Assembly: GCA_946409635.1 (NCBI GenBank)
Contig: CAMJXD010000004.1
Coordinates: 1-64,000, forward strand
Length of the DNA: 64,000 nucleotides
Origin: an uncultured Prevotellaceae bacterium
GTDB taxonomy: Bacteria > Bacteroidota > Bacteroidia > Bacteroidales > Muribaculaceae
Reading direction: 5' to 3'
The notes below the pieces were generated by a model. It was not told the origin of the DNA and did not search any database. It saw nothing but the letters and a program-made list of their open reading frames with translations. This document shows positions 4,593 through 60,945 of this stretch, piece after piece. The position numbers were made by a program, and so were the translations under genes. Position 1 is the stretch's first letter, and each line of letters begins with the position of its first letter.

Positions 4593-5282
4593 ATGAAACG
4601 TTTTTTTAACCTGTGTTTATTGAGTATGGTGCTGGGGCTCACTGCCGCAGCCCAAGACGTGGACATGACCTATGTGTTTGTTGAAGCCGACGGCACTGTG
4701 CTTGACAATGGAGCAACTGTGGTAAGGAACACAGTTGAGGAATATGATGTAGGCACCGATGTCATTTACTCTGACATCTCGGTCAAGAATACCGGTATCG
4801 GCAATGAATGGCTCCGGGTCATTTATCACGTCGAGCGTCTGGATAACGGAGCTTACCAGATTTGCTTCCCCACGAGCTGTAATTCCCAGATTGAGATTGG
4901 TGACTACGTGACACCCGTGGGCCAGCTGATGGGCAATGTTCAGAATATCGAGAGCGAATGGTTTCCCGTTGCCGACGGCACCTGCCAGGTGACGCTCACC
5001 ATTGAGCTGATGTCCAGAATAGGCAGTTTCCCGAACTTTAGCTACGTGCATAAGGCCTATGGCCCGTCGCTGACCATCAAGTTTGTGAAAGGTGAGCTCC
5101 CTCCCGAGCCCAAGGATGGTGACGTTAACGGTGACGGCGAGGTCAACATCGCTGACGTCAATGCCGTTGTCGACATGATACTATCGCAGCAGGGTAGTGC
5201 CAGCGGCGACGTGAACCATGACAGCGAGATCAATATTGCTGATGTCAATGCGCTGATCTCGATGATCCTGGGCAGTAACTGA
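4593..5282 (+). CDS. Secreted protein with C-terminal dockerin-type repeats
   Basis: A 229-residue exported protein with a signal peptide of about 20 residues (ending AAAQ). Residues 22 to about 168 form a domain I do not recognise, with one Cys pair (CFPTSC). The last 55 residues hold two dockerin type I calcium-loop repeats, DVNGDGEVNIADVNAVVDMI and DVNHDSEINIADVNALISMI. Dockerins bind cohesin modules in cellulosomes; in Bacteroidota their partners are mostly unknown, and no cohesin is seen in this window. It is the fourth gene of the exported redox cluster. Confidence 0.78.
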   Translation: MKRFFNLCLLSMVLGLTAAAQDVDMTYVFVEADGTVLDNGATVVRNTVEEYDVGTDVIYSDISVKNTGIGNEWLRVIYHVERLDNGAYQICFPTSCNSQIEIGDYVTPVGQLMGNVQNIESEWFPVADGTCQVTLTIELMSRIGSFPNFSYVHKAYGPSLTIKFVKGELPPEPKDGDVNGDGEVNIADVNAVVDMILSQQGSASGDVNHDSEINIADVNALISMILGSN

Positions 5283-47775: not shown

Positions 47776-49185
47776 TTACTCGGCGCTGGTCAGGATATGG
47801 TTAACCATGTCGATTGCGTCACTGATGGTGATGCCACCCTCGCCGTTATAGTCGGCTGCATCCAGATTGATATCAGCGCTTGAACCATTGGACAGGTAGT
47901 TGATGAGCAGCATCACGTCGCTGATGTTAACCTTGTTGTCGCCGTTGATGTCACCAGGAATCGTCTCGTCGCCACTGCCAGGAATCACGTAGCCCTCGTA
48001 GGGGAAACAATTGATAATCATCTCATTACCACTGTTGCTGCTCTGGCTGAAATCCCACACCTCATCGTCGTCATAAGGATTGAAGACAAGAGCGTTGATT
48101 TCAAACCAGCCGTCGAACTTGCCATTGAAACCCCAGTTCATGTGGAACTTACCATCGACATCAACACCATCAACTACCCAAGCATGGCCTTCCCACATGT
48201 CATGGTAGGGGATGGGACGACCGGCTTCAAGCTCGGTGCGCATCAGTGCAGTCCATTCCTCAATGGTATATTTGTTAGAATTATCGTTGTAGTATGAGGG
48301 ATCCTTACCAATCAGCTGCAAGTTCTCATTGTAACCAAAGGTTTTAAAAGCAGTTCGCTGGTCGTAAGAATAACTGCCGGTACTTGTGCCGCTGTTTCCA
48401 TAGCGAGACTTGCAGGCTTGTCCGCAGTAGCGGCTCAACTTGGCAACTTCATTGGCCTGCTCATCGGTATAGTCAGCAATAATAGGGTTACCAGTCTCGG
48501 GATCGTAGTAGCGGTATGCGTCAACAATCAGGTCATAGTCAAATGTGGTGGCGGGCAGACTGGAGTACCACTGGTAGCCAGTTCCCTGATAGCCGGAGAG
48601 TTCAGGTACTTCGTTCGGGTATTTCCAGTAGTTCACGATTTGTGCCATAGCAAGAGGGGCACAACCCACCGAAGTGCGTTGTCCAGAGGCATTCGTCGGA
48701 CACTGGCGATTCCAGGGCTCACCTTGTCCCCATCTTGTCTTCAGCAACGGACCGACAGCGGCTGAGAGCTTGATAGCCTTCACTGGAACGGTTTTACCCT
48801 TGTAGGCCTGTGCAGTCTCGATCTGGCCCTTGAGCATGTTCAGGAAGCCCTTCATGTTCTCGGGCATGGCGTTCATGTCAAGGCTGCCTTCGGTGCCGTA
48901 GGCCAGCACTTCCTTGGCTATGTCGTCACCAGCGACGATGACCCAGCCGCCACCCTGGATGTTGAACACGTAGTAGGCGTTGCCCTCAACGTTGGAAGCC
49001 TCGGTGTGGGTGAGCTGGATAGCGCTAGCGGTAGGGGCCATGAACTTGCCGGCCCTGTTCTGCTGGACAAACTTGCCTGCGATGTCGCGAGCCTGGTTCA
49101 CATCGATGTTGTCGGCGTTGACATTGACTGCGGCTAGAGCAAGGGCAGCCATTAAACCGGTTTTCAGGATAGATGAGATGTTCAT
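47776..49185 (-). CDS. Secreted C10-family cysteine peptidase with dockerin (A)
   Basis: A 469-residue secreted peptidase of the streptopain (C10) family. The signal peptide covers about 1-24. The propeptide contains YYVFNIQGGGWVIVAGDD. The catalytic Cys is Cys175 (SVGCAPLAMAQIVNYW) and the catalytic His is His334 (WEGHAWVVDG), with the family's FHMNWGFNGKFDGWF after it. Residues 411-467 form a dockerin: GDINGDNKVNISDVMLLINY, then a degenerate second loop DYNGEGGITISDAIDM. It shares architecture with the gene at 49430, the tandem neighbour. It probably degrades host or dietary protein outside the cell. Confidence 0.87.
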   Translation of the reverse strand: MNISSILKTGLMAALALAAVNVNADNIDVNQARDIAGKFVQQNRAGKFMAPTASAIQLTHTEASNVEGNAYYVFNIQGGGWVIVAGDDIAKEVLAYGTEGSLDMNAMPENMKGFLNMLKGQIETAQAYKGKTVPVKAIKLSAAVGPLLKTRWGQGEPWNRQCPTNASGQRTSVGCAPLAMAQIVNYWKYPNEVPELSGYQGTGYQWYSSLPATTFDYDLIVDAYRYYDPETGNPIIADYTDEQANEVAKLSRYCGQACKSRYGNSGTSTGSYSYDQRTAFKTFGYNENLQLIGKDPSYYNDNSNKYTIEEWTALMRTELEAGRPIPYHDMWEGHAWVVDGVDVDGKFHMNWGFNGKFDGWFEINALVFNPYDDDEVWDFSQSSNSGNEMIINCFPYEGYVIPGSGDETIPGDINGDNKVNISDVMLLINYLSNGSSADINLDAADYNGEGGITISDAIDMVNHILTSAE

Positions 49186-49245
49186 TGTAAAAGTAATAAA
49201 ATGGTTAATAAGTTAGATGTTGATTATCATATTATTTCTGGTCAC

Positions 49246-49253
49246 AAAATTAG
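49246..49253 (-). promoter_or_regulatory. -7 promoter box of C10 peptidase A
   Basis: On the minus strand TAATTTTG matches the consensus, about 60 bases before the ATG. The same ACTAATTTTG stretch occurs before peptidase B. Confidence 0.58.
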
Positions 49254-49354
49254 TCATATTTTTTAGAAATAATGTTTTTTATACATTTTTTTTGGCGTTT
49301 TTTAGTGCTTTTTGGTGAAGGGGGGCTGTGTCAAGGGTATCGTTCTGAAAATGA

Positions 49355-49388
49355 ACGAGGACAAGGCACCAGAGCGCCTCGTCCTCGT
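49355..49388 (-). terminator. Terminator after the second C10 peptidase gene
   Basis: Arms ACGAGGACAAGGC and GCCTCGTCCTCGT (one wobble) enclose an eight-base loop, 41 bases after the stop on the minus strand. The T-rich tail is modest. Confidence 0.68.
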
Positions 49389-49429
49389 CAATGAGTTAAT
49401 GGGCCGGCTTTGCCAGGCCGCATGAGTTA

Positions 49430-50824
49430 TCAACTGTTGGCGGTAATCTGATTGATGAGCATGATGATGTCCGACACGTTGATGTTGCCGTCACCATTCA
49501 TGTCGGCAGCTTCAAGGTCGATACTGGTTGCGCCATTGTTGATGACATAATTGGTCAAGTCGATGACGTCGGTGATATTGACCTCACCGTCCATGTTGAC
49601 GTCACCAGGGATAAGAGTCGTCGGGGGTTCCCATCCCTCGGGAGGAGTCAGACCGATGATGATTTCATGGCCAGAACTGAAGTTGAGCTGGTCACCGTCG
49701 CGGTGAACCATTCTCAATGCTGTTGAAGCATACCATCCGTCGCACGTGCCATACCAGCCCAGGTTGAAGTGGAACTTGCCCTCGCTGTTGTAGCCGTCAC
49801 AGATAAAGGCATGTCCGCCGGCGCTGGGGTCGTTGGCCGAGTAGAGAATGGGACGACCGGCATCGAGCTCGGTCTTTAACTTCTGTTCCCACTCGGCGGT
49901 AGTGTAGTTGCTGCTGCCCCAGCCGCCCCAGCCAGAGTTCTTCTGTAAAAGTTGGGCACTGGTGTAGCCGAAACTCTTCATGGCGTCGAGCTGGTCATAG
50001 GTGTAGGCTCCGCTGCCCTCAGGGCTGTATCCCATTTCCACGGCTTGGCCGCAATAGCGTCCCAGCTTGGCGACTTCCTGAGCCTGGGCGTCGGTATAAG
50101 TGTCCTGGATGAGCTCACTGTTGTCCCAATCCCAATGGCAGTAGGAATTGAGCATGAGCCTGTAGTCGACGGTTGTGGCTTGCAGTGCAGGCACATAGGC
50201 ATTAATGTCATAGCAATAGTAGCGCTTGACGGCAGGCAGGTCGGTGGGGTACTGCCAGTATTTCATGACCTGGGCCATCGCAGTGGCCACACAGCCCACG
50301 ACGCAGTACTCGCCCTGGTAGAGTGGGCATTGCAGGTAATAGGGCATCTCTTGGCCCCATGTGGTCTTGATGAGCGGACCCACGGTGCCGTCAGCTTTGA
50401 ACGAGACGGGGGCGGGTACAAGGTCGTCGGACTTGTAGGTCTGCAGGAACTCGATCTCCTTCTTGTAACCGTCCAGCAGGTCCTGCAACGGAGCCGGCAG
50501 GTTGTTGAAGTCGATGGCGCTCTTGTCGCTGTAACCCAGCACCTGGGTTGCACGGTCCTCGCCGGCCACGATGACCCATCCGCCGCCGGTGATGTTGAAT
50601 GCATAGAAGTCGACGGCCCCGTTCACCTGGCTTGAGGGCTCGGCATGGGCCAGCCTGATGTTGCTTGCCGTGGGCGACTTGATCATCGTCGGGGCGTGTT
50701 GCTTGACGTGATTGATAGCGACAGCCTGAGCTGTCGTGATGTCAATGTTTGCGGCGCTGGCTTGGAACGATAGCATCGTGAGCGCGGCCAGCATGCATGA
50801 ACTCATAGATCTTTTGATGTTCAT
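49430..50824 (-). CDS. Secreted C10-family cysteine peptidase with dockerin (B)
   Basis: A 464-residue paralogue of the peptidase at 47776. The signal peptide covers about 1-24 (ending ASAA). The propeptide keeps DFYAFNITGGGWVIVAGED. The catalytic Cys is Cys178 in VVGCVATAMAQVMKYW and the catalytic His is His338 in GGHAFICDGY, followed by FHFNLGWYGTCDGWY. The C-terminal dockerin (407-462) has two intact calcium loops, DVNMDGEVNITDVIDL and DMNGDGNINVSDIIML. The two genes lie in tandem, each with its own promoter box and hairpin. Secretion by a general route and surface retention through the dockerin are inferred. Confidence 0.88.
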   Translation of the reverse strand: MNIKRSMSSCMLAALTMLSFQASAANIDITTAQAVAINHVKQHAPTMIKSPTASNIRLAHAEPSSQVNGAVDFYAFNITGGGWVIVAGEDRATQVLGYSDKSAIDFNNLPAPLQDLLDGYKKEIEFLQTYKSDDLVPAPVSFKADGTVGPLIKTTWGQEMPYYLQCPLYQGEYCVVGCVATAMAQVMKYWQYPTDLPAVKRYYCYDINAYVPALQATTVDYRLMLNSYCHWDWDNSELIQDTYTDAQAQEVAKLGRYCGQAVEMGYSPEGSGAYTYDQLDAMKSFGYTSAQLLQKNSGWGGWGSSNYTTAEWEQKLKTELDAGRPILYSANDPSAGGHAFICDGYNSEGKFHFNLGWYGTCDGWYASTALRMVHRDGDQLNFSSGHEIIIGLTPPEGWEPPTTLIPGDVNMDGEVNITDVIDLTNYVINNGATSIDLEAADMNGDGNINVSDIIMLINQITANS

Positions 50825-51169: not shown

Positions 51170-52282
51170 ATGAAAAGATTAAACCTGATTTTGTTATTCG
51201 TGTTTATCTTGCAAGGCATGATGCATGCCGTCCCTGCCAGCGATGCTCGCCTGCTGGTATTGTATTATACTTATAGTGGCGTGACCGAGACGCTTGCCCA
51301 GGCCATTGCCGACAACTGTGGCGGCACCCTGCTCGAGGTGGTGGACCATGGCAATTACCCGCGTCCCGAGAGCAGCACGACCTATAACTATGCCAACAAC
51401 GAGCGTAGCCAGATTGATGCCGGCGTGTGGCCCGAGATCAAGACCAAAGTCGACAGTTTTGACCAGTGGGATGCCGTGATCATCTGCACCCCCTTGTGGA
51501 ACGGCAAGATGGCCAACCCGATGCTCACCTTCCTGCACAATCATGCATCTAAGCTTGCAGGCAAGCAAGTGGCGCTTGCCGTCACCAGCTGGAGCAGCGG
51601 CATTGCCAATGTGGTGAATGACGCTCACAATCAGCTGCCCGGTAGCACCTTTGTAGGAGATGCGCTGCACATCAGTTATAATGACCGGTTAAAAATCCCG
51701 ACGATGTCCAGCCAGTGGGTTGGCACGCTGGACTTTGAGGTCGAGGCCGTCGATCGTCCCATGATGCTTGTCGTGGAGAACAATAAGACCTTTACAGCCA
51801 CGCTAGCCGACAACGCCACAGCCGAGGCGTTCAAGGCCTTGCTGCCGTTGACGCTTGACATGACCGAACTCAATGGCAACGAGAAGTACAACTACCTGAG
51901 TACGTCCCTGCCTAAGAATGCCGTCAATCCCGGTACTATCCATGCCGGCGACATCATGCTGTATGGCTCGTCGTGTGTGGTGCTGTTCTATGAAACATTT
52001 GCCACAAGCTATACCTATACCCGCATCGGGGCGGTCGACGACCCCACGGAGCTTGCCCAGGCACTGGGTAGCGGTAATGTCACTGTGCGCTTCATGATTG
52101 AAGGCAAGCCTGGTGACATCAATGGCGATAACGAGGTGAACGTCAGCGATGTCAACCTGCTCATCAATTATATCCTGCTAGATACAGGGGGCTCGCCTGC
52201 TCCCGGCTATGCCGATTTCAATCAGGACGGCGAGGTCAATATTGCCGACGTCAATGCTCTCATTAATTATATTTTAAATTAA
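51170..52282 (+). CDS. Exported flavodoxin / cyclophilin-like / dockerin fusion
   Basis: A 370-residue protein with a signal peptide (about 1-20). Residues 28-190 are a flavodoxin domain: the FMN phosphate loop is YYTYSGVTETLAQAIAD (32-48), and CTPLWNGKMANPMLTFL and VTSWSSG line the cofactor site. Residues about 198-310 form a cyclophilin-like domain (FTATLADNATAEAFKALLPL, HAGDIMLYGSSCVVLFYETF, YTRIG) of the type found in small secreted or flavodoxin-linked proteins. Residues 314-368 are a dockerin with two loops (DINGDNEVNVSDVNLLINYI and DFNQDGEVNIADVNALINYI). An exported flavodoxin with a dockerin is unusual. It opens a five-gene redox operon. Confidence 0.82.
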   Translation: MKRLNLILLFVFILQGMMHAVPASDARLLVLYYTYSGVTETLAQAIADNCGGTLLEVVDHGNYPRPESSTTYNYANNERSQIDAGVWPEIKTKVDSFDQWDAVIICTPLWNGKMANPMLTFLHNHASKLAGKQVALAVTSWSSGIANVVNDAHNQLPGSTFVGDALHISYNDRLKIPTMSSQWVGTLDFEVEAVDRPMMLVVENNKTFTATLADNATAEAFKALLPLTLDMTELNGNEKYNYLSTSLPKNAVNPGTIHAGDIMLYGSSCVVLFYETFATSYTYTRIGAVDDPTELAQALGSGNVTVRFMIEGKPGDINGDNEVNVSDVNLLINYILLDTGGSPAPGYADFNQDGEVNIADVNALINYILN

Positions 52283-52286
52283 GACA

Positions 52287-52868
52287 ATGATCATGAAAAA
52301 GTTTAAACATTATATATCAATCCTCTTGACTGTGGTAGCAGGCTTTAGCGCTTGGGCCACTGGTCAAGCCCAAAACAGTAATCAAGCAATGAACAACAAT
52401 TCCAAGAAACTGGTCGCCTACTTCAGCGCGACCGGCACAACGATGGAGGCGGCGATACGCCTGGCTCAGGCTTCGGGTGCCGTGCTGCATGAGATCAAGC
52501 CTGCAACCCCTTACACCAGTGCTGACCTGAACTGGACCGACAAGTCGAGCCGCAGCAGCGTTGAGATGGCTGACAAGAGCAGTCGTCCCGCCATTGATGG
52601 CAAGGTGGAGAACATGGCACAGTATGACGTGGTGTTTGTCGGTTTTCCCATCTGGTGGTACATCGCCCCGACGATTATCAACACTTTTCTGGAGCAGTAC
52701 GACTTTACGGGAAAAACCATCGTCCCGTTCTTCACATCGGGCGGCAGTGGCGCAGGCGAGACCTTGAAGTATCTCAAGCCCTCGGCTCCTGGTGCCAACT
52801 GGGTGTCACCCAAGAATTTCAATTACATGAGCCTGGACGACATCAAGCAATGGCTTGAGTCGCTCTAA
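52287..52868 (+). CDS. Exported flavodoxin
   Basis: A 193-residue exported flavodoxin (signal about 1-28; start at 52287 or the Met at 52293). The FMN phosphate loop is YFSATGTTMEAA (45-56), and GFPIWWYIAPTIINTFLEQY (119-138) and FFTSGGSGAGETL (148-160) form the flavin-binding loops. The overall pattern fits the flavodoxin_4 group of Bacteroidota and Firmicutes. It begins four bases after the dockerin fusion gene, so both are co-translated. Being exported, it cannot be reduced by the usual cytoplasmic reductases; its electron donor is not evident. Confidence 0.84.
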   Translation: MIMKKFKHYISILLTVVAGFSAWATGQAQNSNQAMNNNSKKLVAYFSATGTTMEAAIRLAQASGAVLHEIKPATPYTSADLNWTDKSSRSSVEMADKSSRPAIDGKVENMAQYDVVFVGFPIWWYIAPTIINTFLEQYDFTGKTIVPFFTSGGSGAGETLKYLKPSAPGANWVSPKNFNYMSLDDIKQWLESL

Positions 52869-52901
52869 TGCTCGTGACCGGTTGTTGTAATGTGGCGGTA
52901 A

Positions 52902-52934
52902 TTTGCTGATGTCGGCATTTTGTCGTAAATTTGC
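52902..52934 (+). promoter_or_regulatory. Promoter of the DUF362 gene
   Basis: TTTG at 52902, a 20-base spacer and TAAATTTGC at 52926 are a near-perfect match. It gives the second half of the redox cluster (52958-56248) its own start besides read-through. Confidence 0.78.
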
Positions 52935-52957
52935 ACGGGAAATTAATTAACTTAACA

Positions 52958-53911
52958 ATGACAACAATGAGAACAAGAAAGATTTTGATGGTTGTGGCCC
53001 TTGCCATGATGGCTCTCACGACCAGTGCCCAGAGTAAGGTGTATTATACTCGAGAAATCACTCCCGAGTCGCTTGTGAAGATTTATAAGGCCCTGGGCGT
53101 GGAGGCTACAGGTCGAGTGGCCGTTAAGATCAGTACAGGTGAAGCCGGAAACAATCACTACCTCAAGCCCACGCTTATCCGCAATCTGGTCGAAGAGGTG
53201 AACGGTACGATTGTCGAGTGTTGCACGGCCTATGGCGGCTCCCGTCAAGAAGTGTCCAAGCACTGGCAGACCATACACGAGCATGGCTTTGACTCTATCT
53301 TTGCTGTCGACATCATGGACGAGTTCGGTCAGATGCGTATTCCCGTCAAGGATCGCAGCCACATCAAGTATGACATCGTGGGCGACCACCTTGCTGCCTA
53401 TGACTGGATGATTAACCTGGCTCACTTCAAGGGGCACGCCATGGGTGGTTACGGTGGCGTGTTGAAGAATGCGTCGATAGGCGTGGCCAGCACGGCAGGC
53501 AAAGCCTATATCCACTCGGCCGGCTACACTGATGATGCCAGCGACGCGTGGAATCATATCGAGGATCAGGACGGATTCCTGGAGTCGATGGCAGCTGCAG
53601 CCCAGGCTGTCCACAACTACATGGGCGGACGCGTCATCTATATCAACGTGATGAATAACATGTCGGTCGATTGTGACTGCGACGGTACGCCCGACGAGCC
53701 CAAACTCAAGGACATGGGCATCATGGCAAGCCTTGATCCCGTGGCTCTGGACTGGGCCTGCGTGCAGATGGTGATGAACCACAAGGCCAAGGCCGGTGAC
53801 GATAACGCACCGCTGATTGAACGCATCAATAGCCGCCACGGCACCCACACCATCGACTGGGCAGAGCACATCGGCCTGGGCAGCAAGAACTACGTCATCG
53901 TCAACTTGTAG
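52958..53911 (+). CDS. Exported DUF362-family protein
   Basis: A 317-residue protein of the DUF362 family with a signal peptide (about 1-24, ending TSAQ). Family blocks are present: VAVKISTGEAGNNHYLKP, LVEEVNGTIVECCTAYGG, the DYPVVINLAHFK-like WMINLAHFKGHAMGGYGGVLKN, and MGIMASLDPVALDWACVQM. DUF362 proteins are often linked to 4Fe-4S ferredoxin domains; here no CxxCxxC cluster motif is seen, only CC, a CDCDG element and scattered Cys. The reading frame could start at 52931, but that lies in the promoter. Role in the redox operon is inferred only. Confidence 0.78.
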   Translation: MTTMRTRKILMVVALAMMALTTSAQSKVYYTREITPESLVKIYKALGVEATGRVAVKISTGEAGNNHYLKPTLIRNLVEEVNGTIVECCTAYGGSRQEVSKHWQTIHEHGFDSIFAVDIMDEFGQMRIPVKDRSHIKYDIVGDHLAAYDWMINLAHFKGHAMGGYGGVLKNASIGVASTAGKAYIHSAGYTDDASDAWNHIEDQDGFLESMAAAAQAVHNYMGGRVIYINVMNNMSVDCDCDGTPDEPKLKDMGIMASLDPVALDWACVQMVMNHKAKAGDDNAPLIERINSRHGTHTIDWAEHIGLGSKNYVIVNL

Positions 53912-53964
53912 TGATGGATGGCCATCTACTTTGTCACATCAATTTAACCCCTAAAATAATTACA

Positions 53965-55137
53965 ATGAACAATTTTGTCTATAACATCCCTGTAAAGGTT
54001 TATTTCGGTGAAAATCAGTTGCAGCACCTCGGCGAGGAGCTGGCAAAATATGGTAAGCGCGTGCTGTTGACCTATGGCGGCGGTTCCATCAAGCGCACGG
54101 GCCTGTATGACGCTGTGGTCGAGGAAATCAAGAAGGCCGGCATGGAGCTTTTTGAACTCTCAGGCATTGAGCCCAATCCCCGCATCGACAGCGTTCGCCG
54201 CGGAGCACAGATGTGCAAGGACCACAATATCGACGTGCTGCTGGCCGTTGGCGGCGGCTCCACCATCGATGCCACCAAGTTTATGGCTGCAGGAGCCAAG
54301 GTTGACCATGACCCGTGGGACTTCTTCAATGAGAAGTGGGCTCCCATCAAGGAAGCACTCCCCATCGTCAGCGTGCTCACCCTGTCGGCTACCGGTAGCG
54401 AGATGGATGCCGGCGGAGTGATCAGCAATCCCGAGACCCATGACAAGATAGGTCGTGTGGAGTCACCCACCTTGTTGCCCAAGGTTTCCTTCTTGGATCC
54501 CACGGTGACCTATACTGTGAGCCCATATCAGACGGCCTGCGGTGCAGCCGACATGCTGTCCCACATTTTTGAGGTCTACTTCAACATGAATCAGGACCTG
54601 TATATGCTCGACTGCTTCATGGAGGGCATGATGAAGACCATCATCAAGTATGCGCCCATCGCCATGAAGGAGCCCGATAACTATGAGGCACGTGCCAACC
54701 TGATGTGGACTTCGTCGTGGGCCATCAACGGCTTTGTTGACGGTGGCAAGCGTCAGGCGTGGAGCTGTCATCCCATGGAGCATGAGGTTTCGGCCTACTA
54801 CGATATCACTCATGGTCTGGGACTGGCTATCATCACTCCGCGCTGGATGGAGTATTGCCTGAGCGAGAATACCGTGAGCAAGTATGTGCAGTATGGTGTA
54901 AACGTGTTTGGCATCAATCCCGACCAGCCTGCAATGGATATCGCCCGTCAGGCCATCGAGAAGACCAAGGAATTCCTGTTCGGTACCCTGGGCTTGACCA
55001 GTACATTCACTGCCCTGGGCATCAATGACGAGCACATTCCCGTCATGGCCCGTAAATCCTGTGCTGGCGGTGTGCTGCCCGGTTTCGTGCCCCTGAACCA
55101 GCAGGATATTGAGACTATCTTCCGCAATTGCTTGTAA
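53965..55137 (+). CDS. YqhD/BDH-type iron-containing alcohol dehydrogenase
   Basis: A 390-residue NAD(P)H-dependent alcohol dehydrogenase of the YqhD/butanol dehydrogenase group. It reduces aldehydes to alcohols in the cytoplasm. GGGSIKRTG (38-46) and AVGGGSTIDATKF (95-107) bind the nucleotide. The metal ligands Asp196, His200, His269 and His283 sit two positions after those of E. coli YqhD as I recall them. Start at 53965 is chosen because it gives the family N-terminus MNNFVYNIPVKVYFG; an upstream frame extension of 18 codons has no family character. It has no signal peptide, unlike its four neighbours in the operon. Confidence 0.92.
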   Translation: MNNFVYNIPVKVYFGENQLQHLGEELAKYGKRVLLTYGGGSIKRTGLYDAVVEEIKKAGMELFELSGIEPNPRIDSVRRGAQMCKDHNIDVLLAVGGGSTIDATKFMAAGAKVDHDPWDFFNEKWAPIKEALPIVSVLTLSATGSEMDAGGVISNPETHDKIGRVESPTLLPKVSFLDPTVTYTVSPYQTACGAADMLSHIFEVYFNMNQDLYMLDCFMEGMMKTIIKYAPIAMKEPDNYEARANLMWTSSWAINGFVDGGKRQAWSCHPMEHEVSAYYDITHGLGLAIITPRWMEYCLSENTVSKYVQYGVNVFGINPDQPAMDIARQAIEKTKEFLFGTLGLTSTFTALGINDEHIPVMARKSCAGGVLPGFVPLNQQDIETIFRNCL

Positions 55138-55147
55138 CATAAGTATT

Positions 55148-56248
55148 ATGGAACGATTCAAGAAACTATCGCTTATTGTATTGGCAATCGTGATGTCTAT
55201 GACCTATATCAACGCACAGTCTCAAATGAATATCAAGAAACAACACTTGGCTACCATCGCCGCCCTAGAGGCTAAGGGTGACGTGAAGAATCTGCTACCC
55301 GCCATCAATGCAGGACTAGACGACGGCCTCACCGTCAATCAGATTAAGGAAGCCCTCTCGCAACTGTATGCCTATACCGGTTTCCCCAGGTCGCTCAACG
55401 CACTGGGCGTGCTCCAGCAGGTGGTTGCCGACAGGGAAAAGCTGGGGCGGACCACCGAGGTGGGTCCCGACGCGGCCCCGCTGCCTGATGACTATGACGC
55501 CCTGAAACAGGGTACCGAAGTGCAGACCCGTCTCACGGGTCAGCCCTTTGATTACCAGTTTGCGCCGCAGACCGACTATTACCTCAAGGCTCATCTGTTT
55601 GGCGACATTTTTGCACGCACCACGCTCACTGAGCCCGAGCGCGAGATTGTCACCGTGAGTGCCATCTCGGCGCTGGAAGGATGTGAACCTCAACTCATCG
55701 CCCACGTGCGCGGAGCACGCAACATGGGCGTTACCGACGACGAGATACACTTCATCCCCCAGGTGCTGGAAAAGACCGTCGGCGCGCTTGAGGCTTGGCG
55801 CGCCCGCAAGGCGATTGCTACCGTGTATGGCGAGCCGATGAACGAGGGCCGCCCCACCGACGGGACGTGGCCTCGTGGCGACTTCAACAGCGACTATGCC
55901 GAGTACTTCATCGGCAACAGTTACCTGGCACCCATGGATGCCGAAAACGGCGGCCCGGTGAACGTCACCTTTGAGCCCGGTTGCCGCAACAACTGGCACA
56001 TCCACCACAAGGCCGTGCAGGTCCTGATCTGTGTCGAGGGGCGTGGCTGGTATCAAGAGTGGGGCAAGTCGCCCGTTGAGCTCAAGCCCGGCGTTGTCAT
56101 TCCCATCCCTGAGGGTGTGAAGCACTGGCACGGGGCCGCTCGCGACAGCTGGTTCCAGCATGTCACTTACATGACTCGTGTCGAATCTGGCTCGACAACC
56201 GACTGGCTAGAGCCGGTGAATGACGAGATTTATGATAAATTACCTTAA
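55148..56248 (+). CDS. Exported carboxymuconolactone-decarboxylase / cupin fusion
   Basis: A 366-residue fusion with a signal peptide (about 1-24). Two carboxymuconolactone decarboxylase-like units lie at about 36-95 and 140-225; the second has the AhpD/CMD helix EGCEPQLIAHVRGARNMGVTDDEI, with only one Cys. A cupin follows (about 265-345): HIHH at 284-287, then the second motif PEGVKHWHG at 322-330. The cupin probably binds a metal. Start at 55148 gives the signal peptide. Such fusions are known in Bacteroidota and Proteobacteria, often near flavodoxins and dehydrogenases, but the substrate is unknown. It closes the redox operon. Confidence 0.86.
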   Translation: MERFKKLSLIVLAIVMSMTYINAQSQMNIKKQHLATIAALEAKGDVKNLLPAINAGLDDGLTVNQIKEALSQLYAYTGFPRSLNALGVLQQVVADREKLGRTTEVGPDAAPLPDDYDALKQGTEVQTRLTGQPFDYQFAPQTDYYLKAHLFGDIFARTTLTEPEREIVTVSAISALEGCEPQLIAHVRGARNMGVTDDEIHFIPQVLEKTVGALEAWRARKAIATVYGEPMNEGRPTDGTWPRGDFNSDYAEYFIGNSYLAPMDAENGGPVNVTFEPGCRNNWHIHHKAVQVLICVEGRGWYQEWGKSPVELKPGVVIPIPEGVKHWHGAARDSWFQHVTYMTRVESGSTTDWLEPVNDEIYDKLP

Positions 56249-56544: not shown

Positions 56545-57666
56545 ATGATGAAAAAGATGATTTTTTTACTGGCAGCGTTGACGACCATGTACGCTGCTGC
56601 TCAACATTCTAATATGTATAACGAGAACATGGCACGCGCTATCGACCGGGTGTTCAGCGCCGTGTATAACAATGCCGACGAGCCGGGTGCTGCCGTGCTT
56701 ATTATGCAGGGCAGCGACACAATCTACAGCCGCTGTTTCGGCCTGGCCGACATGGAAACCAGGCAGCCCGTAACCCTTGCCACCAACTTCTGCATAGCCT
56801 CGGTGTCCAAGCAGTTTTCGGCCGTGGCACTGATGCAGCTGGCCGAGCAGGGACTCTTGTCGCTCGACGACCCGCTGTCGAAGTTTTTCCCTGAGTTCCA
56901 GGCGCCGTTCTTCAAGGAGATCACCCTGCATCACATCCTGAGCCACACGTCGGGCATCCCCGATGTGCGTCCGCGCGACAATCGTGACTTTGTGCTCTAC
57001 AGCAACGATGTGACCTCGGTGGGGTATATGCGCACCCTCGACCATCTGAATTTCCAGCCAGGCTCACAATATGAGTACATCAACCCTACGTTCCAGCTCA
57101 TTTATCAGATTGTAGAGCGGGTGTCAGGCATGCCGTTTGAAGCCTATATGCAAACCCATATCTTTGGCCGGATTGGTATGCAGTCATGCTGCTACTTTGA
57201 GCCCGAACGCAGGATTTCCCACATGGCCCACGGCTATGTGCGCGACGATAAGGGTGCTGGGTGGCAGGAGTATGACTATGGTGAGGAGAGTTTCTTCGGC
57301 ACCAAGGCCGACGGTGCCCTCTATTGCTCCATCAACGACTTTGTGACCTGGGAGCGTGCCCTGCGCGACAACCGCGTGTGGACGGCAGCCAGCAAGCGTT
57401 TGGCCTATCAGCCGTGGATCAGTATCCCTAAAGATGCCGAGTACGGCTATCAGCCCTATACGGGTTACGGCTACGGCTTCTTTGTCCAGGACTATCCCGG
57501 ACAGCCCACCCACGTCTATCACCTGGGCGACAACGGCGGTTTTACCATCTATGCCGGCAAGATTCCCGAGCGCGACCTGATCTTCCTCTTCTTCTCGACT
57601 CGGCCCGACATCGACCGCCTGCGCATGGTAAACGATGTCTACCACATCCTGGGCTTCAACTTCTAG
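56545..57666 (+). CDS. Secreted serine hydrolase, class C beta-lactamase fold
   Basis: A 373-residue exported protein (signal about 1-20). It belongs to the class C beta-lactamase/penicillin-binding-protein-like family (DD-peptidase or esterase). The SxxK motif is Ser86-Val-Ser-Lys89 (IASVSKQFSA). The second motif YxN is Tyr178-Ile-Asn180. The C-terminal motif is probably HLGDNGGF. The typical LSHTSGIPD lies at 132-140. Substrate is unknown; most such secreted proteins are not true beta-lactamases. It converges on the LTA-synthase-like gene with 27 bases between stops. Confidence 0.88.
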   Translation: MMKKMIFLLAALTTMYAAAQHSNMYNENMARAIDRVFSAVYNNADEPGAAVLIMQGSDTIYSRCFGLADMETRQPVTLATNFCIASVSKQFSAVALMQLAEQGLLSLDDPLSKFFPEFQAPFFKEITLHHILSHTSGIPDVRPRDNRDFVLYSNDVTSVGYMRTLDHLNFQPGSQYEYINPTFQLIYQIVERVSGMPFEAYMQTHIFGRIGMQSCCYFEPERRISHMAHGYVRDDKGAGWQEYDYGEESFFGTKADGALYCSINDFVTWERALRDNRVWTAASKRLAYQPWISIPKDAEYGYQPYTGYGYGFFVQDYPGQPTHVYHLGDNGGFTIYAGKIPERDLIFLFFSTRPDIDRLRMVNDVYHILGFNF

Positions 57667-59800: not shown

Positions 59801-59809
59801 TACCTTTGC
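59801..59809 (+). promoter_or_regulatory. -7 promoter box of prfA
   Basis: TACCTTTGC matches the consensus and lies 26 bases before the prfA ATG at 59836; no clear -33 element. Confidence 0.65.
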
Positions 59810-59835
59810 ACCCAAAAATTAAAAAATGCACAATT

Positions 59836-60945
59836 ATGGCACAATCACCCTTACTGCAACGACTGGACGGACTGGATGCCCGCTTTGAGGAAATAGGCAC
59901 CCTGATTACCGACCCTGCCGTCATCGCCGACCAGAAGCGTTACGTCAAGCTCACCAAGGAGTACAAGAGCCTGGAGACGTTGCTCAATGCGACCCATCGC
60001 TACCGTAAACTGCTCGAGGACATCGAGCAGGCCAAGGCCGTGCTCGACACCGAGACCGACGAGGACCTCAGAGCCATGGCCCGCGAGGAAATTGACGAGA
60101 ATCAGGCCGCATTGCCCAAACTCGAGGAAGAAATCAAGCTCCTGCTCATCCCCGAGGATCCCGAGGACAGCAAGAATGTGGTGCTCGAGATACGTGGCGG
60201 AACTGGAGGCGACGAGGCTGCCCTGTTTGCAGGCGACCTGGCTCGCATGTACACCCGCTACTGCGAGAGCAAGGGGTGGAACGTGCAGTTGTCGAGTTGC
60301 AGCGAGGGTGCTGTGGGGGGCTTCAAGGAGGTCGTCTTCAGTATCACGGGCGATAACGTGTACGGCACATTGAAGTATGAGTCGGGCGTGCACCGTGTGC
60401 AACGTGTGCCTGTTACCGAAACCCAGGGGCGCGTGCACACCAGTGCTGCCAGCGTGGCTGTGCTGCCCGAGGCCGAGCCCTTTGACGTTCACATCAACGA
60501 GGGCGAGATCAAGTGGGACACCTTTCGCAGCGGCGGTGCCGGTGGCCAGAACGTGAACAAGGTGAACAGCGGTGTGCGCCTGCGTTACATGTGGACCAAC
60601 CCTAACACGGGTGAGCAGCAGGAAATCCTCATCGAGTGTACCGAGACCCGCGACCAGCCCAAGAACAAGGAACGTGCCCTGGCTCGACTGCGCACATTTA
60701 TCTATGACCACGAGCACCAGAAGTATGTCGACGATATCGCTTCGCGTCGCAAGACTCTCGTGTCGACTGGTGACCGCTCGGCCAAAATCCGCACTTACAA
60801 CTACCCTCAGGGGCGCATTACCGATCACCGCATTGGCTACACGATCTACAATCTGCCCGCCTTTATGGACGGAGACATCCAGGACTGCATCGACCACCTC
60901 ATCGTTGCCGAGAACGCCGAGAAACTCAAGGAAGCGGAACTGTGA
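59836..60945 (+). CDS. prfA: Peptide chain release factor 1
   Basis: RF1 (369 residues), which reads UAA and UAG and triggers peptide release. The GGQ motif is at 236-238 (RSGGAGGQNVNKVNSGVRL), methylated by PrmC in known bacteria. The codon-recognition PxT tripeptide is PVT at 192-194 in HRVQRVPVTETQGRVHTS; this distinguishes it from RF2 (SPF). Start at 59836 gives MAQSPLLQRLDGL; an upstream frame extension crosses the promoter. A block of three 7-base repeats begins 11 bases after the stop. Confidence 0.96.
   Translation: MAQSPLLQRLDGLDARFEEIGTLITDPAVIADQKRYVKLTKEYKSLETLLNATHRYRKLLEDIEQAKAVLDTETDEDLRAMAREEIDENQAALPKLEEEIKLLLIPEDPEDSKNVVLEIRGGTGGDEAALFAGDLARMYTRYCESKGWNVQLSSCSEGAVGGFKEVVFSITGDNVYGTLKYESGVHRVQRVPVTETQGRVHTSAASVAVLPEAEPFDVHINEGEIKWDTFRSGGAGGQNVNKVNSGVRLRYMWTNPNTGEQQEILIECTETRDQPKNKERALARLRTFIYDHEHQKYVDDIASRRKTLVSTGDRSAKIRTYNYPQGRITDHRIGYTIYNLPAFMDGDIQDCIDHLIVAENAEKLKEAEL

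Follow-up and report, generated by a model that had tools for sequence, protein, structure and literature searches.

A variable Bacteroidales gene cluster that seemingly places flavodoxins, a DUF362 protein and a CMD-cupin fusion outside the cytoplasm

Gene content of the cluster

The window, i.e. the whole stretch of DNA analysed here, comprises positions 1 to 64,000 of contig CAMJXD010000004.1 (assembly GCA_946409635.1) from an uncultured Prevotellaceae bacterium, and it carries a cluster of five redox genes that includes a DUF362 protein. The source assembly has 2.57 Mb in 134 contigs and is 84% complete. The nearest named contigs come from uncultured Muribaculaceae, Prevotellaceae and Bacteroidales, and several are of ruminant origin. 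Open reading frame (ORF) calls on the window put all five genes on the + strand with intergenic gaps of 4, 89, 53 and 10 bp; they are presumably transcribed as an operon. An earlier sequence-only reading had described five co-directional genes of named redox families here, and both the ORFs and the Pfam domains bear this out.

The first gene (51170-52282), called FCD below, encodes a signal-like N-terminus, a flavodoxin, a cyclophilin-like domain and a C-terminal type I dockerin. It matches Flavodoxin_4 (E 2.6e-11), Cyclophil_like2 (E 6.4e-33) and Dockerin_1 (E 2e-14, 54 bits) in Pfam, and FMN_red is matched as well. When the window protein is aligned with 11 orthologs, the dockerin is conserved in each of the 12 rows, and so is the loop YSGVT or YSGIT. 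The loop pattern is unmatched in 4 of the 16 FCD hits, namely L043, an ORF that was counted as FCD and does not have a flavodoxin-like start, and L176, L183 and L184, with loops FTG or YTG. The second gene, FLD (52287-52868), is a flavodoxin with a signal-like N-terminus that matches Flavodoxin_4 in Pfam. It belongs to the PRK07116 subfamily, scoring 228.6 bits against a cut-off of 198 for NCBIfam NF005501, and the motif YFSATGTT or YFSASGVT is present in all 21 distinct homologs of this type (fld4). Its close homologs 3klb, 4ici and 4j8p (E 1.7e-52 to 4.4e-51) are annotated merely as putative flavoprotein or flavodoxin.

The third gene (52958-53911) encodes the DUF362 protein, which has 317 aa and a signal-like N-terminus and passes the gathering cut-off of PF04015 (151.2 vs 24 bits). 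The fourth, FeADH (53965-55137), is an iron-type alcohol dehydrogenase resembling YqhD and butanol dehydrogenases, without a signal (Pfam Fe-ADH, E 2e-47); the nearest solved chains are 7w9x, 1vlj and 1oj7 (YqhD). The fifth (55148-56248) is a fusion of CMD, in two stretches, and Cupin_2, with a signal-like N-terminus (CMD E 3.3e-21, Cupin_2 E 6e-8). Its cupin half aligns with TM1010 (2f4p), 4bif/4uxa and the NCBIfam (R)-mandelonitrile lyase, and the His and Gln positions of 2f4p and 4bif are kept if a one-residue gap is allowed. The fifth protein differs from these cupins in being fused to CMD and in its signal-like N-terminus, and it reaches 103.0 of the 140 bits required by the (R)-mandelonitrile lyase model. 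Both proteins named as flavodoxins do carry the domain, but the dockerin and cyclophilin-like domains that make the first one a three-domain fusion had been overlooked; Pfam agrees with the DUF362 assignment, for which the fold described below had been missed.

Signal-like N-termini

Signals were called by a crude heuristic of hydrophobicity and charge on N-termini, with repeat loci of one genome still counted. It turned out that nearly all homologs of four cluster proteins were called: fld4-type flavodoxins (23 of 23), FCD (15 of 16), DUF362 (114 of 117) and CMD-cupin (26 of 26). The same holds for a second flavodoxin type (15 of 15) and for the alpha/beta hydrolases found in related clusters (10 of 11). 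No call was made for FeADH (0 of 30) or for the DkgA-like aldo-keto reductases (AKR) of relatives (0 of 15). The heuristic over-calls, since it was also positive for the N-termini of SDR (4 of 5) and AKR40 (1 of 6) proteins. Some flavodoxins and hydrolases of relatives have lipoprotein-like N-termini. The claim that four of the five products have signal peptides and that only the alcohol dehydrogenase stays inside therefore agrees with the heuristic, in the window and across homologs. Export of FCD, FLD, DUF362 and CMD-cupin from the cytoplasm is suggested but not proven by these N-termini. Outside the cytoplasm NAD(P)H is not available and flavin mononucleotide (FMN) would need to be supplied. 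Besides, three distant Bacteroidota DUF362 proteins (L112, L114 and L117) start with MDRRKF or MKRREF types of sequence that look Tat-like by eye, while that of the window is Sec-like.

Conservation among relatives

The locus set consists of the best 80 of 408 loci from a contig scan (L031 to L110) and 36 stretches added from genomes of the genus, which gave 104 loci after repeats were removed. Genes were counted as co-localised with DUF362 when they shared its strand and lay no more than 8 kb away, and the 21 loci with a DUF362 identity of at least 84% were taken as close relatives. DUF362 has a match in 81 of 101 genus genomes, some of these matches being a second lineage or fragments. The close-relative loci contain FeADH in 21 cases, a flavodoxin in 19, FCD in 12 (11 without L043), the gene of a beta-lactamase-fold protein in 12 and CMD-cupin in 7. 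Just 3 of the 21 (L031, L038 and L047) have the complete set of five, and four others (L033, L036, L042 and L044) have the order DUF362-FCD-FLD-FeADH. The core is thus kept among close relatives, with variable order and edge genes, and the exact five-gene operon was rejected as a conserved unit. Co-occurrence across Bacteroidales, which the sequence-only reading had put forward as a check, is found for the families, which recurrently co-localise, but not for the operon as a whole.

At lower identity the neighbours change. The 70 loci at 68-83% DUF362 identity include a TonB receptor in 25 cases, CMD-cupin in 10, AKR in 9, a flavodoxin in 7 and FeADH in 4. The receptor, of about 620 aa, mostly follows DUF362 directly (e.g. 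in L092, 10975-12837, of the cultured Xylanibacter brevis ATCC 19188), and in L175, from a single-contig genus genome, a flavin-reductase-like ORF (by eye), a flavodoxin, DUF362 and a TonB receptor stand in a row. These neighbours would fit a coupling to uptake, in which DUF362 and the flavodoxin modify a compound imported through TonB (a metal chelate, heme, corrinoid or plant metabolite) and the cluster is an accessory of nutrient uptake and not of detoxification. We retain this role mainly because of the 25 of 70 loci and regard it as possible but rather doubtful, for the receptor is near DUF362 in none of the 21 close-relative loci. Its matches are also generic (siderophore, B12, heme), so that no substrate can be named.

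The 10 loci at 55-67% identity contain a flavodoxin in 6 cases, AKR in 5, CMD-cupin in 4, FCD in 2 and a TonB receptor in 1; in 4 of them, none of the six partner families that were counted is present. Beyond the close relatives, DUF362 loci thus also have redox neighbours, in other orders. A full cluster is carried by some loci at 68-83% identity: L063 and L089 both read a divergent AraC gene, a flavodoxin, FeADH (48% identical to that of the window), a DkgA-like AKR, DUF362 and CMD-cupin, the former with an additional SDR and the latter with an additional alpha/beta hydrolase.

The second DUF362 lineage and other families

For a second DUF362 lineage, about 37% identical to the protein of the window, 16 genomes of the genus were examined. 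The dockerin-flavodoxin-cyclophilin gene of L184, which has its dockerin at the N-terminus, is followed after a 3-base gap by DUF362, which overlaps a CMD-cupin gene by 4 bases. L190 has the same trio, and L183 has the first two genes, with the contig ending soon after. A divergent flavodoxin-cyclophilin gene lies near the second-lineage DUF362 in L189 and L197, and a set of AraC, SDR, flavodoxin and AKR in L196. That a distant paralog has these partners too is the strongest argument for a functional grouping.

At E<=1e-20, the flavodoxin-cyclophilin part of FCD is matched in 12 genomes out of 198 from the order, one of them being the source genome itself. The 11 others are loci from other Bacteroidales families; in 8 of them (7 families), a flavodoxin-cyclophilin gene or a lone cyclophilin-like gene has neighbours among the alpha/beta hydrolase, CMD-cupin, AKR and flavodoxin genes. 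In L214, FCD lies with such a hydrolase and an FMN reductase; in L215 and L218 the hydrolase accompanies a lone cyclophilin-like gene; L219 has FCD, a fusion of flavin reductase and ABM, and CMD-cupin; L220 FCD and CMD-cupin; L223 a hydrolase, an AraC-like gene, FCD, ABM and CMD-cupin. In L216 and L217, a divergent AraC gene, a flavodoxin, AKR, CMD-cupin, a second AKR, a cyclophilin-like gene, a second flavodoxin and a hydrolase are found. As a rough background, the alpha/beta hydrolase is absent from all 16 second-lineage loci and occurs in 3 of the 70 with 68-83% identity. The second AKR of L217 (2898-4139) is an aldo/keto reductase with 4Fe-4S (Fer4) domains and a lipoprotein-like N-terminus.

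These recurrences bear on the idea that no pathway is shared and that the genes form a loose island of stress-related redox genes, kept close by recombination or shared regulation. Gene order and membership do vary strongly, as the five genes together in just 3 of 21 loci illustrate, but the grouping recurs beside two DUF362 lineages and in 7 other families, and so do signal-like forms of normally internal families. We consider such an island unlikely.

Another explanation would be an exported route for catabolism or detoxification of plant aromatics in fibre-degrading rumen bacteria, with steps by CMD-cupin, dienelactone-hydrolase-like and amidohydrolase proteins. Related clusters do hold a dienelactone-hydrolase-like alpha/beta hydrolase (L065), an Amidohydro_2 protein (L053) and CMD-cupin (L063), and several of the nearest contigs have ruminant sources. 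This route seems quite unlikely all the same, given that no gene for ring cleavage or aromatic activation is present among the window genes scanned and that the scores for the PcaC (62.8 bits, cut-off 155.7) and PcaDC (60.3 bits, cut-off 390) models are far too low.

DUF362 and the LarA superfamily

The predicted structure of DUF362 has the fold of LarA (lactate racemase), which places the protein in this fold group at the level of the model. The residues H160, K170 and H186 are invariant in 38 DUF362 rows, and their spacing, Hx9Kx15H, matches H174-K184-H200 of LarA. All 38 DUF362 rows and all 3 Lar_N proteins show the pattern, vs 8 of 709 other ORFs. K170 and H186, 16 apart, correspond by sequence spacing only to K184 and H200, which bind the nickel-pincer nucleotide (NPN). 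According to an excerpt of PMC7583248, a K-H spacing of 16 is also found in LarA, Mar2 and GntE2; the second-lineage DUF362 of L184 has one extra residue between K and H. When equivalents of R75, D72, K298 and H108 of LarA were sought, the place of H108 appeared, by eye only, to hold Ser or Thr (S/T95). An hhalign comparison of two shallow profiles, DUF362 and Lar_N, picked the same region with a probability of 0.3%, which is not significant, and the PDB sequence search with DUF362 gave only four chance-level rows.

DUF362 of the window therefore shares its modelled fold and the Hx9Kx15H spacing with the LarA superfamily and differs from it in the signal-like N-terminus, the length of 317 aa, the apparent Ser/Thr at the H108 place and the lack of LarC or LarE over cut-off in the genus. 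None of the 101 genus genomes has LarC over its cut-off, one weak match lying below it, and none of 16 other genomes with DUF362 has it either; LarE likewise passes in none of the 101, with weak matches in 90. For this reason an NPN enzyme with a home-made cofactor was rejected. LarA chemistry proceeds through transient oxidation of a 2-hydroxy acid, as an excerpt of PMC11770544 describes. One could imagine that the exported DUF362 is a LarA-type envelope enzyme whose pincer-like or other Lys-tethered organometallic cofactor is scavenged and not made, with the TonB receptor of distant relatives as importer and the exported flavodoxins keeping cofactor or substrate reduced. We hold this to be very unlikely; if true, the lactate racemase superfamily would have a branch that works outside the cytoplasm and scavenges its cofactor.

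Within the open-licence literature (subscription journals were outside the scope), no description of the cluster was found, and no function was found for DUF362 in the passages naming it. DUF362-CBM9-dockerin proteins are mentioned from moose and beaver gut enrichments in part of PMC5742341. As far as that part goes, they resemble the present case in the dockerin tag and the gut bacteria; here the dockerin is on the flavodoxin fusion and not on DUF362.

Comparison with known systems

The nearest analogue is a carbonyl defence of the yqhC-yqhDE type, to which the cluster would add exported parts. In Escherichia coli this locus encodes an AraC regulator, the aldehyde reductase YqhD and the aldo-keto reductase YqhE (DkgA). 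The window has a YqhD-like dehydrogenase (296.9 bits for PRK15138, below the cut-off of 645), and a divergent AraC gene with a DkgA-like AKR is found in L063, L089, L153, L216 and L217, together with FeADH in L063 and L089. The window cluster differs in having four signal-like products, in its additional flavodoxins, DUF362 and CMD-cupin, and in the absence of a divergent AraC gene and a DkgA-type AKR, and for this absence it is not counted as a member. Excerpts of PMC5297802 state that YqhC activates yqhD with glyoxal and furfural and that furfural upregulates yqhE via YqhC. An ABM gene, a domain seen in L219 and L223, belongs to the glyoxal-induced arqI-gloA2 operon (PMC12274486, in part). 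An iron-stress flavodoxin was rejected: the iron-regulated FldA of Bacteroidetes shares the flavodoxin name, but its partner is DUF2023 and none of the cluster genes, so it is a different locus according to the text available from PMC10434189.

Proposed function

We propose, with a probability of roughly 0.42, that the five genes are the local version of a modular Bacteroidales cluster whose products are mostly extracytoplasmic and process reactive carbonyl or quinone-type compounds. The products outside the cytoplasm would be periplasmic, lipoproteins or dockerin-tagged, and the chemistry would be reduction and hydride transfer. FLD and FCD, presumably with bound FMN, would pass electrons or hydride from some donor to an envelope compound; the exported DUF362, with its predicted LarA fold, may act on a hydroxy- or oxo-acid-like compound, and CMD-cupin may perform a further step, if this order is right. 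Any carbonyl reaching the cytoplasm would be reduced by the YqhD-like dehydrogenase. The aldehyde or quinone role is an analogy, suggested by the divergent AraC, FeADH and DkgA-like genes of some relatives, as in yqhC-yqhDE, and by the flavin reductase and ABM genes of others.

Several observations weigh against the proposal. Ten of the 16 second-lineage loci have no such partner nearby (among them L201, where an AKR piece lies nearly 7 kb off, and L195, with a dockerin-only match), and 3 of the 11 other-family loci (L221, L222 and L224) contain none of the listed partners. Of the 70 loci in the 68-83% identity class, 56 lack all six partner families that were counted, so DUF362 also functions in their absence. 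There is no AraC or AKR gene in the window cluster, and no match to those of relatives in the window; own genome (84% complete as assembled) has no good match to the DkgA-like AKR either, the best being 37% over 87 residues. The AKR of relatives is itself under the DkgA equivalog cut-off (221.7 vs 425 bits). The ABM protein ArqI has no appreciable role in glyoxal resistance, as part of PMC12274486 reports. The CMD domain reads GCEPQ, i.e. CxxQ, at the place of the CxxC motif of AhpD-type peroxidases, and an AhpD peroxidase was rejected for the lack of CxxC. No periplasmic electron donor was identified in the analysis. The suggestion of an envelope electron pathway or a detoxification route thus survives as an analogy for aldehyde or quinone compounds, while the electron pathway is unproven for want of a donor.

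A recurrent cluster of gut and rumen Bacteroidales seemingly puts flavodoxins, a LarA-fold protein and CMD-cupin outside the cytoplasm. If confirmed, the proposal would define an envelope redox activity in common gut bacteria, give DUF362 a testable role and make one ask how a site of the LarA type can function when the NPN pathway is missing.

Promoter, dockerins and neighbouring genes

An exact match to TTTG-N20-TAAATTTG, which we take to be the Bacteroides-type promoter pattern, lies upstream of DUF362 at 52902-52933 on the + strand. The window holds 5 such sites vs 0.34 expected. The internal promoter proposed at 52902 is thus present as a pattern, but the separate control of the last three genes that was attached to it is not conserved: of 23 close-relative rows, two of which repeat listed genomes, only 8 have an exact match within 250 bp upstream of DUF362, and L041, L047, L048 and L049, with just 8-16 bp between flavodoxin and DUF362, have none. 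A conserved internal promoter was rejected on these rows.

Four dockerin tails occur in the 64 kb (5106-5270, 47791-47967, 49445-49609 and 52100-52279), two of them on C10 peptidases. Because similar tails are found at three other places, the dockerin of FCD is likely a general tag. A cohesin is over cut-off in 37 of 101 genus genomes and none was matched in the source genome, which is 84% complete, leaving a cellulosome part unsupported there.

Upstream, on the opposite strand and divergent from the cluster, lie two streptopain-like C10 peptidases with Spi inhibitor and dockerin domains (47776-50824), and C10 genes again stand beside the cluster in several relatives. Downstream is the beta-lactamase-fold protein (56545-57666), with a signal-like N-terminus. 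With a limit of E<=1e-6, nothing else in the window matched the queries for flavodoxin, DUF362, FeADH, CMD-cupin, AKR or hydrolase. A release factor 1 gene is located further downstream (59806-60945), and a gene similar to it by eye is near the cyclophilin-hydrolase pair of another family (L215, 13494-14606), a hint that both clusters may have an old shared location.

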